From contig JAADHS010000216.1 of the NCBI GenBank assembly GCA_013151745.1, positions 1-55,258 of the forward strand: a stretch of DNA of 55,258 nt, in the 5' to 3' direction. The notes under the pieces are model-generated. The model saw only the letters and a list, made by a program, of their open reading frames with translations. It had not been told where the DNA came from and did no database searches. The stretch comes from Gammaproteobacteria bacterium. GTDB lineage: Bacteria; Pseudomonadota; Gammaproteobacteria; JAADHS01. Below, in pieces: positions 26,065 to 32,773 of the stretch (positions within the stretch are counted from its first letter, which is position 1; every line of letters starts with the position of its first letter). The translations under genes and the position numbers were made by a program.

Positions 26065-27129
26065 ATGCAAATAATCAACCGAAAATCATATTTACTTTTC
26101 ATATGCATCTCTATAATAAACAGCCCAGCATGGGTCGCTGCTGATCCTGGCGTGCACAAAAAAATCGACGAAATAAAACGGGTAATGCCGCCGCCTATGA
26201 CCCACACCGATCTGGGCTGTACCCAACAAATGGAACAGCAACCTCATATTAAACTCATGGCAAAAACTAAACAGCAGGATCAATACGGAACCCTTAATCT
26301 CGGCTGTATCCCAGTCATTACAAAAACTCAAGCATTACTTGATGCCAACGTAACCCAAGCATTAGAAGATACCGTTGCTTATCTCACCAACCGCAGCTCT
26401 GTCATCCGTCTCTACATCGATATTGTTGGATCCGATTCAAAAGACAAAACATTACAAACACGTTATCGCAAACAAGCGTTCGCAATAAAACAATATCTCA
26501 CTGAAAAAGGCGTTTATGCTCACCTTAAAAATACGAGAAAAAAACATTTTAGTTCTGTATTGCCTGATAAAGAAAAAAGAAAAAATATAAAACATGTTGC
26601 TAAAAAAACAAAAAAAACAGCGGTCAAAATAAAAACAAAACCAAACCCACCTGACCCCTCCAAAAATTATGCATACCACATGGACAAAAACCAACGAATG
26701 CCGGGGCACGCATCAATCACCCAATACAAAAATCAAAAAATAAACCGCTTTGAATTCATTCCATTAGAAAGCATTTATTTTCCACACAACCAAGACCAGC
26801 TTACAAGGCGCGCCAAAACAACGCTTGATGAAGCAGCGGAATATATTATGAATTCGCGACAGACAACAAAAGTCATCATTGAAGCTCATGCTGACCATAC
26901 TGCAAACACCAAAGACAGCTATCAACTTACTGATCGCCGCGCACAAAAGGTAAAGGATCATTTACTTAACCGGGGCGTACCCATCGCATTACTGGAAATT
27001 TCCAGCAGAGGAAAAACCACCCCCGTTGATGAAAACTGGACACGCTCTGGACAAGCCCGAAACCGGCGAGTAACACTTTATATCATTACCCAGATCGCAT
27101 TAATACATGAATCATTACGTGAGAAATGA
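26065..27129 (+). CDS. Exported OmpA-domain protein, first gene of an uncharacterised envelope cluster
   Basis: 354 residues. A signal peptide (about 1-26, ending WVAAD) is followed by a region with two Cys (LGCTQ and LGCIP) and a degenerate OmpA-like fold (about 90-150, SVIRLYIDIVGSDSKDKTLQTRYRKQAFAIKQYLTEKGV). A Lys-rich linker (about 165-205) leads to a full OmpA domain (about 235-345) with IYFPHNQDQL, IIEAHADHTANTKDSYQLTDRRAQKVKDHL in two blocks and ARNRRVTL, where the Asp and Arg that bind diaminopimelate are present. It probably binds peptidoglycan in the periplasm. The second, degenerate repeat is unusual. It starts a plus-strand run of five genes. Confidence 0.75.
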   Translation: MQIINRKSYLLFICISIINSPAWVAADPGVHKKIDEIKRVMPPPMTHTDLGCTQQMEQQPHIKLMAKTKQQDQYGTLNLGCIPVITKTQALLDANVTQALEDTVAYLTNRSSVIRLYIDIVGSDSKDKTLQTRYRKQAFAIKQYLTEKGVYAHLKNTRKKHFSSVLPDKEKRKNIKHVAKKTKKTAVKIKTKPNPPDPSKNYAYHMDKNQRMPGHASITQYKNQKINRFEFIPLESIYFPHNQDQLTRRAKTTLDEAAEYIMNSRQTTKVIIEAHADHTANTKDSYQLTDRRAQKVKDHLLNRGVPIALLEISSRGKTTPVDENWTRSGQARNRRVTLYIITQIALIHESLREK

Positions 27130-27238
27130 TCTCGCACCACGTCCTTGCTTAAGAATGAAACACAACAACGCACTAAACTAAAGAAATCACCCGCTATGCC
27201 GAAAAAGTTAAAGGGTTAGATTATTAATCGGATTAATT

Positions 27239-29065
27239 GTGGCGGAAGGTTTGAAAACGAGACAATGGGGCGTAGTCATGGCACTGCTCAGTGCGTTGCT
27301 ATATATCGTTGCGCCTAACGTAAATGCAACATCGCAAAAAAATGATACGCGACCCGCCTCCCTGGATGAACTCCATATCATCACCAATACTCAACTACAC
27401 AGCACAAAATCTTCAATCGCCAGCCTGGCCTCTATACTCCAACAACACAAAAAAATTAATTTCTGGAATTTGACTAAAAAGCAGACTTTAACTTCAGTTG
27501 AACTTGGCCATTTTTCAGAACAAACCAGAAAATCCAAACAATCTCCATTTTCTTCTCCAAACAAAAAAAGTCTATTCGACCTTTTTTCATTCATCAGCAA
27601 ACAAGAAAAGCAACAGAAAACAGTCCGCCATATTTTTATTGTATTTGACGAACACTCACCCGTACCGATTTTAACAAACAAAGAATACAATAGCATTTCG
27701 CCACTAATAAAAAGATTTCAAGAAAATAATATAAGCATTTCCACTATACATTTAGGCTCCACCTCTTCGGCTAAAAATTTCCACCTCCATGCTCTAACAA
27801 TTGCGACTAATGGCCGATACCAGAGCATCGCCAATATAGAAAAACTAGAAAAAGAGTTTTTAAACCTCATCTCTTTTTCGCTAAAACTAAATTATCTGCC
27901 TTTTCATGACAATCTGGTACGTATAGACAATAATACGGACAAAATCAGCTTCTTATTATTCGGTACAAATAAAAACTTACCAATTCAGTTTATTCCACCA
28001 CAAGAAGAAAAATTTAATCAATACAACTATCCAGACAATGTCCATTGGTTACAAGAAAAAAACTTCGAAATCATTCATATCGATAAACCAGAAAAAGGAA
28101 CATGGCAAATAGATGCTCAGTCTCACCCTATGGATAAAGCGATTATCTCGTCCGCCTTTCAAGTTGAAATAAACTCCATACCATTGCAGCTTTTTCCTCA
28201 TTCTGCACAAACTTTGTCTATAAAATTGACCCAGGAAAATAAACATATCACGGCTCCCAAAATACTCGACCATGTTGTTATCAAAGTAACCATGCTCAGT
28301 ACACAAGGTACAGAACAAACATGGTTTCCTATGGATAACGGTCGCAATGGAGATAAACAGGCTGACGATGGTATTTATGGCGTGCAGCTTAGCGATGCGT
28401 TATTAGCCGGTCAGTATCATTTAAAAATTGACGTTGATGGTCATTTATTTCAGCGCCAGATTAACACTTCGCTCAACGTCGTTACAAAGCCCTTTGAATT
28501 TTTTATCCTCCTCTCTGAGGATGCTTCTCAACATACCATTACTGTTGTACCCTATGCAAAATTGATCCATGCTGAAACAACAACCATCACGGCCTCTATT
28601 ACCTCCGCTAGCGGAAAACAAAAAGAAATCCGATTAAACCGTAAAAATAACTTTGAATGGCAGCTTGCTCTTGATAATACTCCGGAACTTTCTCCTTATG
28701 TTGTTGAATTAAATATTGCAACCATCACCTATAAAGGGAAATCTCTGAGTATTTGGCTAGACCCTATGACAGTAGGACAAAAACCAACTCAAATAAGAAA
28801 AACAGTCACTCACAAACACCATGACTTAATCGATCATGATAATTCGATAACATCAGCGGATACCCTAATAGAAAATAATAAGGGATCTATATTGAGTAGC
28901 GACGAAAAAATAGAGTCAACCCCTTTGGTTTGGATAACGCCAGAAATACAATTCGTATTAATTAACTTTTTACTGCTCATGCTCATTCTAATTACATTTC
29001 ATTTTTGGAGTCGCTATGACAAAAAATGGATTTACAAGCTAAGAGGGATGTTATCCTATGATTAA
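27239..29065 (+). CDS. Degenerate von Willebrand A-like protein with C-terminal membrane anchor
   Basis: 608 residues from a GTG; an ATG at 27278 would drop the basic residues of the signal peptide, so GTG is preferred. After the signal peptide (about 1-31), residues about 40-210 follow the vWA pattern: RHIFIVFDEHS, then NISISTIHLGS and LTIATNGRYQSI, but the first strand (LHIITNTQLHS) lacks the DxSxS metal site. Around 360-380 is DNGRNGDKQADDGIYGV, common after vWA domains in exported proteins. A membrane helix lies at about 572-590, with a short basic tail inside. It overlaps the next gene by eight bases. The layout recalls the TIGR03503-type family, but I am not certain of that. Confidence 0.55.
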   Translation: MAEGLKTRQWGVVMALLSALLYIVAPNVNATSQKNDTRPASLDELHIITNTQLHSTKSSIASLASILQQHKKINFWNLTKKQTLTSVELGHFSEQTRKSKQSPFSSPNKKSLFDLFSFISKQEKQQKTVRHIFIVFDEHSPVPILTNKEYNSISPLIKRFQENNISISTIHLGSTSSAKNFHLHALTIATNGRYQSIANIEKLEKEFLNLISFSLKLNYLPFHDNLVRIDNNTDKISFLLFGTNKNLPIQFIPPQEEKFNQYNYPDNVHWLQEKNFEIIHIDKPEKGTWQIDAQSHPMDKAIISSAFQVEINSIPLQLFPHSAQTLSIKLTQENKHITAPKILDHVVIKVTMLSTQGTEQTWFPMDNGRNGDKQADDGIYGVQLSDALLAGQYHLKIDVDGHLFQRQINTSLNVVTKPFEFFILLSEDASQHTITVVPYAKLIHAETTTITASITSASGKQKEIRLNRKNNFEWQLALDNTPELSPYVVELNIATITYKGKSLSIWLDPMTVGQKPTQIRKTVTHKHHDLIDHDNSITSADTLIENNKGSILSSDEKIESTPLVWITPEIQFVLINFLLLMLILITFHFWSRYDKKWIYKLRGMLSYD

Positions 29066-30155
29066 TATACACTCCAGCCTATATTACCTATTACTAGAAG
29101 CGCTCGTCGTTTTTATATTATTAACAGCTGTATTGTCATTTTTTCAAATCAGACATTATTTAAAGCGTAAAAAAACGCTCATCGATATTGTATATAAAAT
29201 AAAAGAAAATGGATCACAAAGGAAGGAAGAACTCATCCGCTTGTTAAAAGAACAAGGCTTACCCGATGAAGAGCAGTTACTCATGATCAGCAGTGAAATC
29301 ATGAAAAACGAAACCATATTCTATCAATATATCGTTCATGCCCTGGTAAAAATTGACTTAAACCAACTGTCTGATCTGGATAAACATGTTGAATCACTCA
29401 TTCACAGTATAAGCAAGGCAAGTTTAAAGAAAAAAATAGAGACTCGGGATGGCCTGGAGAAAATTGTATCCAATTTATCAGAGCTACACACGACAGTACA
29501 AGAAATAAGAGACGAACAAAACCAGCTTATGAAGATGGTAATCTGCACACCCACCCCCATTGAGAATCCAGCACTAAATAAGCAGGAAACCCAAAGTGAG
29601 AGCGCTGAAGAGAGCATAGTTGATGTAACAACGTCAGAAACGGTAAAAGAGGTCGATGAAAAAACTGAACAATCACTTAGAAAAGAAGAGATAGATACAA
29701 ATAATGAACCTCTATTAGAGGAACAAGAAATTTCATCCAAAGCCACAAAAGACGTTGACCCTGATAACATTCAGACTCAAAAAAATCGACCTGTTGATCA
29801 ACCAACAATGCCCGAAGAAGAAAATATCGCCACAAAACAGAACGACCCCCAACCAACCAGTCTTGCCATCGAAGACGATATCGACGCTATATTAGACGCG
29901 GAAATCAAACCCACTGAAAAAAAACCAGAAGAAGTTGATATTGACGCCTTAATCGAAGAAGTCGCCGATGAAAACAAAAATGTACTTATAGAAAAAAGTT
30001 CACCCAAGGTTAAACAACAAACGTCGAACGATAAAGCCGATGATATTTTAGATGAACTCAATAATATTGAGTCGTTACAAACTGAGGAAACTACGCACCA
30101 AAGTATGGAAACTGAACCCCCGCAGGAGGAAGAGCTAGAGGAATTACTCAAATAA
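29058..30155 (+). CDS. Membrane-anchored protein with long acidic tail
   Basis: 365 residues. One membrane helix (about 9-30) is followed by a basic stop (RHYLKRKK) and a helical region (about 40-165) with KEELIRLLKEQGLPDEEQLL and a coiled coil (LEKIVSNLSELHTTVQEIRDEQNQLMKM). The rest is low-complexity and acidic, with repeated D-I-D-A-(I/L)-(L/I) motifs (EDDIDAILDAEI, EVDIDALIEEVAD, ADDILDELNN) and an end of EEELEELLK. These repeated short helices look like docking peptides. The ATG overlaps the upstream stop, so it is coupled to the vWA-like gene. Function unknown; the tail is probably cytosolic. Confidence 0.5.
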   Translation: MINIHSSLYYLLLEALVVFILLTAVLSFFQIRHYLKRKKTLIDIVYKIKENGSQRKEELIRLLKEQGLPDEEQLLMISSEIMKNETIFYQYIVHALVKIDLNQLSDLDKHVESLIHSISKASLKKKIETRDGLEKIVSNLSELHTTVQEIRDEQNQLMKMVICTPTPIENPALNKQETQSESAEESIVDVTTSETVKEVDEKTEQSLRKEEIDTNNEPLLEEQEISSKATKDVDPDNIQTQKNRPVDQPTMPEEENIATKQNDPQPTSLAIEDDIDAILDAEIKPTEKKPEEVDIDALIEEVADENKNVLIEKSSPKVKQQTSNDKADDILDELNNIESLQTEETTHQSMETEPPQEEELEELLK

Positions 30156-30332
30156 ACTTGGCATCAAAACACACAATATAAAAAAGTGATTCACCCTTTC
30201 TTTGCCACCATAAATCTATCTTAAATCTCAGCCCTGTTACTGTGGATCGTTAAAAATGTGACCTTCTCCCTAATAGTTCAAACATTTAAACCGATACCAT
30301 TAACAATATTTTCAACCCGGGACAGCTCAGGA

Positions 30333-30875
30333 ATGCTCAAACTTTTTAACAATTCACGCTGGCCTCTCCTTGTCTTTTCTTTGCTAATATGCCTTTTTTT
30401 TCCTCCATTAAGCTATTCCGAAGAACTTGAAAATCAAATAATTAACGAACAAATTCAAAACCTGAAAAAAGAAGTACTAAAACTCAATCGAGACCTTTTT
30501 ATTCTTGAAGAAGAACTACTATTCCCAGCAAGCACTCAAATCGTTGTTTTTGTTTCACTCAATACAGATGACTTGTTTGCATTGGATTCTGTCGAACTTA
30601 AAATAAATAATAAGACGGTAGCACAGTATCTTTATACCGATAGAGAACTTGATGCACTACATCGAGGAGGTGTCCAGCAATTATTCAGCGGCAATATTCG
30701 TTCAGGAAAAAACGAATTGATCGCCTTTTTTACCGGCAAAGGCCCGCATAAGCGAGAATATCGACGCGGTGCCACATTCGAAATAACGAAAACAGATGAA
30801 ATTAAATACATTGAGCTGATCATTCAAGGTAACACCCTTAAGCAACAACCTGAGTTTGTTATTAACGAATGGTAA
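30333..30875 (+). CDS. Small exported coiled-coil protein, unknown function
   Basis: 180 residues from the ATG at 30333, which gives a clean signal peptide (MLKLFNNSRWPLLVFSLL...SYS). An upstream GTG at 30258 would add 25 residues with no signal-peptide logic. The mature part starts with a coiled coil (about 30-65, NEQIQNLKKEVLKLNRDLFILEE in outline), then a beta-rich domain (QIVVFVSLNTDDLFALDSVEL, KNELIAFFTGKG) that looks immunoglobulin-like. Its stop overlaps the start of the TPR gene by seven bases (ATGGTAA). I do not recognise the family. It is probably periplasmic and acts with its neighbours. Confidence 0.5.
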   Translation: MLKLFNNSRWPLLVFSLLICLFFPPLSYSEELENQIINEQIQNLKKEVLKLNRDLFILEEELLFPASTQIVVFVSLNTDDLFALDSVELKINNKTVAQYLYTDRELDALHRGGVQQLFSGNIRSGKNELIAFFTGKGPHKREYRRGATFEITKTDEIKYIELIIQGNTLKQQPEFVINEW

Positions 30876-32773
30876 GGTACAGAATACAACGCCAAAGAAT
30901 AAATCTGGTTTTATTTTTAATGATAACGTTGTTCATGCCTCTTTCAGCACGGAGCGATGATGGCTCAACTACACCCTCACGCACCAGCGGCATCCATCAC
31001 AGCAACGTACTTTATTATTTTTTACAGAAAAAATATTTACCCGCAATATCCAAGTCATTATTTTTTAAAAAAACAGAACGATACAACCCTGAAAAACATG
31101 ACGGGAATTTGCTTCTGGGGGCTCTTTATCTTTCGTATGGACTCTATAATGATGCAAAAAAATTATTTATCATAGTCGCAGACAACAGTGATCAACCCGC
31201 CCTCAGAGATAAAGCCTGGCTGTATTTGTCTGAAATATTCTATCGTCGCGGTGAATACAACAATGCACACTCTGCATTAAACCGCATAAAACAAACCTTG
31301 CCTTCTACCTTTGAAGCAAGAAAAATTATATTAAATGCCAATATCTTTCTCGCTCAAAATAAATATGAGAAAGCGGTTGAGCTATTGCGTAATATCAAAG
31401 AAAAAGAAACGATTTGGACTCACTATGCTCGTTTTAATCTTGGGGTTGCACTCATCAAACTTCAGCAAAAAAAACAAGGCATAGAAGTAATCGAAACGAT
31501 CACAAACAACAAAAAACATTTACATCCAGAAGCGGCCGCATTACGCGACAGGGCGAACATTGCGTTAGGATACACCGCTTTGAATAACCAACAAACTACA
31601 TCTGCACGTCGTTATTTTGAACAGGTTCATCTTCACGGCCCTTATTCCAACCAAGCACTTTTTGGTTTAGGACAAGCCTGGCTCATTGAACAACAACCTA
31701 GCAAAGCTATTCATACATGGAAGGAACTCAACAACAGAAATAATCATGGCGCAGCCGTTCTCGAATCCAGCCTGGCTATTGCAAAAGCTTACATTGCAGA
31801 AAAAAAGCATAGTCAAGCGCTCATTTATTTAAATAAAGCCATCAACACAATTGATGCTGATGTCACGCTACTGCAACAAACTATTATTGATATTGATTCA
31901 AATCATCTCATGAATGAAATTTTGCTCGATAAAATAGAACTTGATAAAACGCCATGGCAGTGGGACCCTGGCAAGCTACCTAAGGCACTAAAAAGATACG
32001 CCATCGCCAAATTAGTTTCTAGTCATGATTTTATAGAAGCACTAAAAAGTTATCGCGATCTCGAATATATTAATAAACAATTTAAGACATGGAAAAACAG
32101 CATCTCAGCTTTTTCGACCATGTTGAATACCCGTAGACATGGTTATAACAATAAACTACCTCTCACTTTGAAAAAATACAAATCACTCGGCATAGCTGAA
32201 ATGAATATTCGTTATAACAATCTAGCCAAGGAGCTACAACGTATAGAAAACAAGAACGACCTTTTGGCACTTAAAACAGCAGAGGAAGCAACATCGCTTA
32301 AACGCAGCACTGAGGTTAATTCTCGACTTGTAAAAATCGGCTCCTTTCTTTCACCAGAAAAAATACAAAATTATCAAGAAAGAGCGCGGCGTACGCAAGG
32401 TCTTCTTTATTGGAAAATAGCAAATAATTACAAGCCCCGGTTACATGTCACTAAAAAATATTTACAAGAATTAGCATTTGAAATTGAGGAAGCGACATAT
32501 CTTCGAACCGAATTAGACAAGGCACAACAGCGAGAACCTGCGTTATTTGAACACTATCAAAATCGAATTTCTGAACTCAGAAAACGGGTTAACCATATGG
32601 AAATCGAGTCGGAAAAATTGATAGCGGCTCAAAGAAAACAAATAGAATCAGCAGCAACAGTACAATTAAATAAACAGATAAAACGTCTTACGCATTATAA
32701 AGAACAGGCTCAATACGCAATTGCACAAATATATGACCTGGCCCTCACAACAAAGAGTAACGAAGAAAACTGA
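30869..32773 (+). CDS. Exported tetratricopeptide-repeat protein, last gene of the envelope cluster
   Basis: 634 residues. A signal peptide (about 1-28, LVLFLMITLFMPLSARSDD) precedes TPR units (about 45-330), for example LLGALYLSYGLYNDAKKLF, AWLYLSEIFYRRGEYNNAHSA and ALFGLGQAWLIEQQPSKAIH. The C-terminal third is helical and coiled-coil with no membrane helix. Such exported TPR proteins act as scaffolds for envelope complexes. It is translationally coupled to the preceding gene. A weak hairpin at 32779-32804 (CACAAAA/TTTTGTG) follows the stop. The specific role is unknown. Confidence 0.6.
   Translation: MVRYRIQRQRINLVLFLMITLFMPLSARSDDGSTTPSRTSGIHHSNVLYYFLQKKYLPAISKSLFFKKTERYNPEKHDGNLLLGALYLSYGLYNDAKKLFIIVADNSDQPALRDKAWLYLSEIFYRRGEYNNAHSALNRIKQTLPSTFEARKIILNANIFLAQNKYEKAVELLRNIKEKETIWTHYARFNLGVALIKLQQKKQGIEVIETITNNKKHLHPEAAALRDRANIALGYTALNNQQTTSARRYFEQVHLHGPYSNQALFGLGQAWLIEQQPSKAIHTWKELNNRNNHGAAVLESSLAIAKAYIAEKKHSQALIYLNKAINTIDADVTLLQQTIIDIDSNHLMNEILLDKIELDKTPWQWDPGKLPKALKRYAIAKLVSSHDFIEALKSYRDLEYINKQFKTWKNSISAFSTMLNTRRHGYNNKLPLTLKKYKSLGIAEMNIRYNNLAKELQRIENKNDLLALKTAEEATSLKRSTEVNSRLVKIGSFLSPEKIQNYQERARRTQGLLYWKIANNYKPRLHVTKKYLQELAFEIEEATYLRTELDKAQQREPALFEHYQNRISELRKRVNHMEIESEKLIAAQRKQIESAATVQLNKQIKRLTHYKEQAQYAIAQIYDLALTTKSNEEN

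Follow-up and report, generated by a model that had tools for sequence, protein, structure and literature searches.

The closest described counterparts of the genes discussed here are the machines of the Agl-Glt and Nfs type. For gammaproteobacteria a core complex has been reported which consists of GltC, GltD, GltE and GltG, of AglR, AglQ and AglS and of an additional gene that has no homologue in myxobacteria, and the authors call this complex one of unknown function (Luciano et al. 2011, PMC3169522). The Agl-Glt/Nfs core complex has also been treated by Wartel et al. (2013, PMC3858216). In Myxococcus xanthus the periplasmic protein GltC binds GltA and GltB, two small barrels of the outer membrane (PMC4488436).

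We analysed a stretch of 55,258 nucleotides from a gammaproteobacterium (contig JAADHS010000216.1 of assembly GCA_013151745.1), in the following called the window. Two of its genes, D and E (30258–32773), very probably encode periplasmic parts of a trans-envelope machine of the Agl-Glt core-complex type driven by the proton-motive force, the three preceding genes A to C being mere neighbours.

Arrangement of the five genes

The open reading frames A to E are all on the plus strand between mtnA/gyrA and fba/pyk, both sets being on the minus strand, and all five are present where an earlier note on this DNA had placed them. The two overlaps described in that note are real as well and comprise 8 nt between B and C (29058–29065) and 7 nt between D and E (30869–30875). 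They had been taken as a sign of fixed stoichiometry; this does not hold, because the D/E junction varies among 80 relatives, with a short overlap in 17 and a gap of 0–42 nt in 59 of them. The A-richness relative to the neighbourhood is borne out: the GC content of the five genes is 37–40% as compared with about 45–48% in the neighbouring genes, owing to proteins rich in lysine and asparagine and to codons ending in A. The homologues in two further genomes of the same family, G001 and G002, likewise have a GC content somewhat below that of the adjacent fba and pyk. Between 25900 and 33000 there are fewer promoter-like sites than in shuffled sequence, and terminator-like sites are about as frequent as in the shuffles.

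Three units in place of one system

Gene A (26065–27129, plus strand, 354 aa) codes for an exported protein and is divergent from and linked to mtnA. The OmpA domain proposed from the sequence is present (Pfam OmpA, 63.6 bits versus a cut-off of 27.2). A clear full-length relative is found only in G002, where it is also divergent from mtnA and lies on a different contig from the B-C and D-E genes; the other genomes compared gave no full-length match. To judge from these neighbourhoods, A belongs neither to the B-C nor to the D-E unit.

The earlier note had combined all five genes into one envelope machine. Such a dedicated machine would fit the common strand, the tight spacing and the two overlaps, and in the set of 56 genomes searched, 17 of which contain D and 15 a TIGR03503 protein, B and D co-occur somewhat above expectation (nine shared genomes, Fisher 0.007). 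In addition, G001 has the two pairs within 12 kb. Nevertheless, B-C is found near D-E in one of 49 D-bearing loci, this one being from a genome of the same family; in G002 the pairs are separated by 33 kb on one contig and in other families they are on different contigs. Within the window's family, D-E adjoins fba and pyk in each of the three genomes. The five genes are thus not conserved together, and since B-C is rarely near D-E and A is unlinked and sits beside mtnA, they are not one system. By synteny, the apparent five-gene cluster is a set of three unrelated units (A, B-C and D-E) that sit together by chance, and a single machine built from all five is highly improbable. The idea of a trans-envelope machine survives for D and E and is given up for A, B and C.

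The pair B-C

Gene B (27239–29065, plus strand, 608 aa from a GTG start) is a distant member of the TIGR03503 family with a choice-of-anchor-X domain and a C-terminal transmembrane segment. It resembles the family in that the match spans most of the 374-position model and in that it has a conserved partner, C; it differs in scoring 120.9 bits, which is below the curated family cut-off of 305.6 bits, and in the loss of the MIDAS metal motif, which is missing in B and its same-family homologues, whereas other TIGR03503 members keep the residues DxSGS. The former description as a membrane-anchored vWA-like protein therefore stands as far as the anchor and a weak vWA match are concerned, but the argument from an adhesion-type fold fails with the degenerate MIDAS, and a role of B as a metal-dependent adhesin is rejected. 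No mention of TIGR03503 was found in the literature searched.

Gene C (29058–30155, plus strand, 365 aa) encodes an N-terminal transmembrane segment, a cytosolic coil and an acidic tail with two exact copies of DIDA[IL] and one DDIL. These repeats, noticed before, are genuine, as two DIDA[IL] copies did not arise in any of 20,000 shuffles of the tail. The G001 homologue shares the tail element DIDAL-EVA-EN as well as an ELExLL-like motif at the C terminus, the latter being present in the G002 homologue too; the recurrence suggests a putative short docking motif. Most of the TIGR03503 genomes examined have B and C side by side, and on this gene order B-C is a conserved pair of its own and not part of the D-E unit. 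Downstream of C, G001 and G002 have genes for a response-regulator/TPR protein and a histidine-kinase-like protein (L039:3851–6183 and L041:1771–4104); the window has neither of them at the corresponding place.

The proteins D and E

Gene D (30258–30875, plus strand) codes for 205 aa when read from the GTG; however, the signal peptide favours the ATG at 30336 as the start. The AlphaFold2 model (pLDDT 86) predicts a long helix (52–88) and an eight-strand beta-sandwich. The previous characterization as a small exported coiled coil was thus right about the export and too narrow about the structure, and we regard D as a putative exported adaptor. A fold search in the PDB returned generic beta-sandwiches with a best E value of 5e-3.

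Gene E (30869–32773, plus strand, 634 aa) encodes an exported TPR protein, in agreement with the earlier reading; its C-terminal part has long helices. Fold searches yield generic TPR proteins, and in the databases the top hits are likewise general TPR families, YbgF and MamA among them. The GltC model NF033756 gives 11.8 bits on the window's E (E value 0.08), which is barely a match. The model matches two of 44 E proteins, and its best E value on the E of a relative is 2.7e-4, again a weak match, over GltC positions of about 220–447. Because the match to the model is weak and TPR repeats cause false matches, the assignment to GltC is based on gene order, by which E most likely takes the place of GltC.

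The gene row around D-E

When the single D protein was searched against 84,980 species genomes, 80 D loci were obtained, among them loci from the cultured Pseudohalioglobus lutimaris and Mangrovimicrobium sediminis (L121 and L123). Draft genomes from metagenomes are over-represented in the sampling, and the profiles used for the neighbourhood counts were built from the first loci found and favour relatives of these. In all 80 loci E directly follows D. The next gene, F, encodes a TPR protein of about 940 aa and follows E in 65 of 71 loci by script and in 68 after reading three artefacts of start calling (L120, L128 and L142); the true exceptions are L073 and L074 from the window's family and L137. 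The usual order then continues with G (a TPR lipoprotein with a weak GltE match), H (90 aa), a TolQ/ExbB gene, two ExbD genes and a gene for a TonB-like protein with an AgmX/PglI tail. This C-terminal domain of the protein after the second ExbD reaches 59.7, 70.6 and 75.1 bits with NF033768 (cut-off 40). The GltG-like protein stays below the GltG equivalog cut-off and has no FHA domain reported, and a GltD model is not among the 25 most-matched families listed for F. Of the 56 loci that extend 8 kb or more downstream, 41 also contain an AglR-like TolQ/ExbB gene and 15 have no motor gene nearby; some of these 15 form a group with D-E-F-H only. In L104, L117 and similar loci, unrelated genes come after D-E-F-H and motor genes are missing from the vicinity. 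One typical gammaproteobacterial D-E-F locus, L091, is on a contig labelled as a Halobacteria archaeon, a label that is probably a binning error.

The presence of D and of the GltD-like F is identical in the 56 genomes: 17 have both and 39 have neither (Fisher 1e-14), F being counted as present only for strong matches below 1e-100. In addition, E and F are fused in G024 to a single frame of 1415 aa (L051:2281–6528, minus strand), and F and G are fused in G019. On the order and co-occurrence of its genes, the row around D-E is the gammaproteobacterial Agl-Glt core complex of Luciano et al. (2011), whose extra gene may be D or H. The earlier note could name no system for these genes; for the D-E pair there is a named one, albeit functionally unassigned.

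As in the Agl-Glt/Nfs core complex, a TolQ/ExbB-type and two ExbD-type subunits, a TonB-like protein with an AgmX/PglI tail, a large TPR protein, a TPR lipoprotein and a TPR protein in the GltC position are encoded in one row. In contrast to it, the genes are distributed here over at least three contigs, E is duplicated and most relatives link to a redox and outer-membrane set. The inferred motor layout is also that of the M. xanthus gliding machine (AglRQS-GltA-K) and of the Nfs spore-coat machine, and the barrel pair that accompanies D-E in relatives may be analogous to the one bound by GltC. On the other hand, the Group A proteins of the gliding machine (GltA, B, F and H–K) are reported to be absent outside Myxococcales and Bdellovibrionales, and gliding is not expected in the gammaproteobacterial carriers.

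Linkage to outer-membrane and redox genes

Genes for HZS-alpha proteins, which mostly carry two CxxCH motifs, are present within 10 kb upstream of D-E in 40 of the 49 loci with room, and occur in 8 of the 17 D genomes as compared with one of the 39 others. The TIGR04565 (OMP_myx_plus) barrel is found in 10 of the 17 and in none of the 39, for which the chance is about 5e-7. In the papers searched we found no description of a link between the Agl-Glt core complex and such a redox and outer-membrane set. The linkage suggests that the machine may move or assemble surface redox proteins. The set has DUF3570 and a thioredoxin-like protein in common with the DUF3570/ApbE flavinylated electron-transfer clusters (PMC8238504), but most DUF3570 copies here lack the flavinylation motif [ST]GA[ST], and we reject flavinylation of DUF3570 in this case.

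Dispersed loci in this genome

In the window D-E is flanked by fba and by A-C and has no motor genes. These are on another contig, C46, where a paralogue of E, E', is located behind a phosphoribulokinase-like gene and is followed by F, G, H, AglR, two ExbD and a GltG-like gene; thus F and G follow E' and not the E of the window. The tail of the TonB-like protein of C46 is the one matching NF033768 AgmX/PglI with 59.7 bits, and its next match is GltG. A third contig, C113, carries genes for an HZS-alpha haem lipoprotein, an SH3-barrel protein, a TIGR04565 outer-membrane barrel, a redoxin and DUF3570 and, divergently, for a DUF1585-like protein (weak match), a LamG lipoprotein and a putative Tat-exported protein. 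In line with our main reading, and with the same high confidence, we suggest that the machine is split here over three loci, the window carrying D-E, C46 the motor with the TPR stack and C113 the outer-membrane and redox set. The assembly is a draft in 292 contigs, and the real distances between the three loci may be smaller than this distribution suggests.

The E proteins of the window's family form two well-supported clades, one comprising the E of the window and the copies beside fba in G001 and G002, the other E' and the motor-locus copy of G002. The motor-locus E of G001 begins with a stretch matching the helix of D (E value 4e-5 in a search of six sequences), and the same region of E' matches it marginally (0.04). 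Since the C46 copy is without a full D and a separate D gene is not present there, the D of the window is, by sequence comparison, the one complete copy that this genome was seen to contain.

Mode of action and alternatives

Gene order, co-occurrence, fusions and domains all point to D and E as parts of an Agl-Glt machine. We infer that the TolQ/ExbB-ExbD-ExbD stator (AglR, Q and S) would move the GltG-like, TonB-like arm with its AgmX/PglI tail, which would act through the outer-membrane TPR lipoproteins F and G on E and D, and that these in turn would be coupled to beta-barrels of the outer membrane and to the surface cargo of the barrels. The D-E of the window would use the motor of C46 in trans.

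The weak GltC match of E and the 15 loci without a motor gene nearby speak against this reading, as does the separation of D-E from the motor in the window's family, since the pair could have left the machine. It would then be a paralogue which serves the C113 surface redox set, or has another role, without a motor. The two E clades, of which one is accompanied by the motor and the other lies beside fba and lacks it, fit this view, as does the position of the window-type D-E of G002 directly after one copy of the set from HZS-alpha to DUF3570. However, in most other families D-E directly precedes F and the motor, and as the C46 copy is without a full D, a motor that needs D would have to use the copy of the window. 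We therefore consider a departure from the machine unlikely, though it is the more serious of the two alternatives for D-E. The other one, an ordinary TPR pair for cell-wall functions or polysaccharide export unlinked to Agl-Glt machines, is suggested by the generic TPR families among the best matches of E; the identical distribution of D and F (17 of 17), the conserved gene order, the E-F fusion and the partner with the AgmX/PglI tail make it very hard to uphold.

Within the Agl-Glt reading, a more specific and tentative suggestion is that the gammaproteobacterial core might be a motor which deploys or moves a surface redox assembly, and that the lineage of the window broke this machine up into three loci and kept its single full D next to fba. 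The assembly might possibly consist of the HZS-alpha haem lipoprotein, the lectin-like LamG lipoprotein, the putative Tat-exported protein, the redoxin, DUF3570 and the TIGR04565 barrel.

The Agl-Glt core complex was recognized in 2011 as a conserved motor unit of many non-gliding gammaproteobacteria and has had no assigned function since then. D, the TIGR04565 barrel and the haem/redoxin set, whose co-occurrence is exclusive or strong, extend this complex. The extended set names a candidate outer-membrane end and a candidate cargo and so makes the question of function testable. The dispersed layout in the lineage of the window separates the periplasmic adaptors from the motor and helps to tell core from accessory parts.
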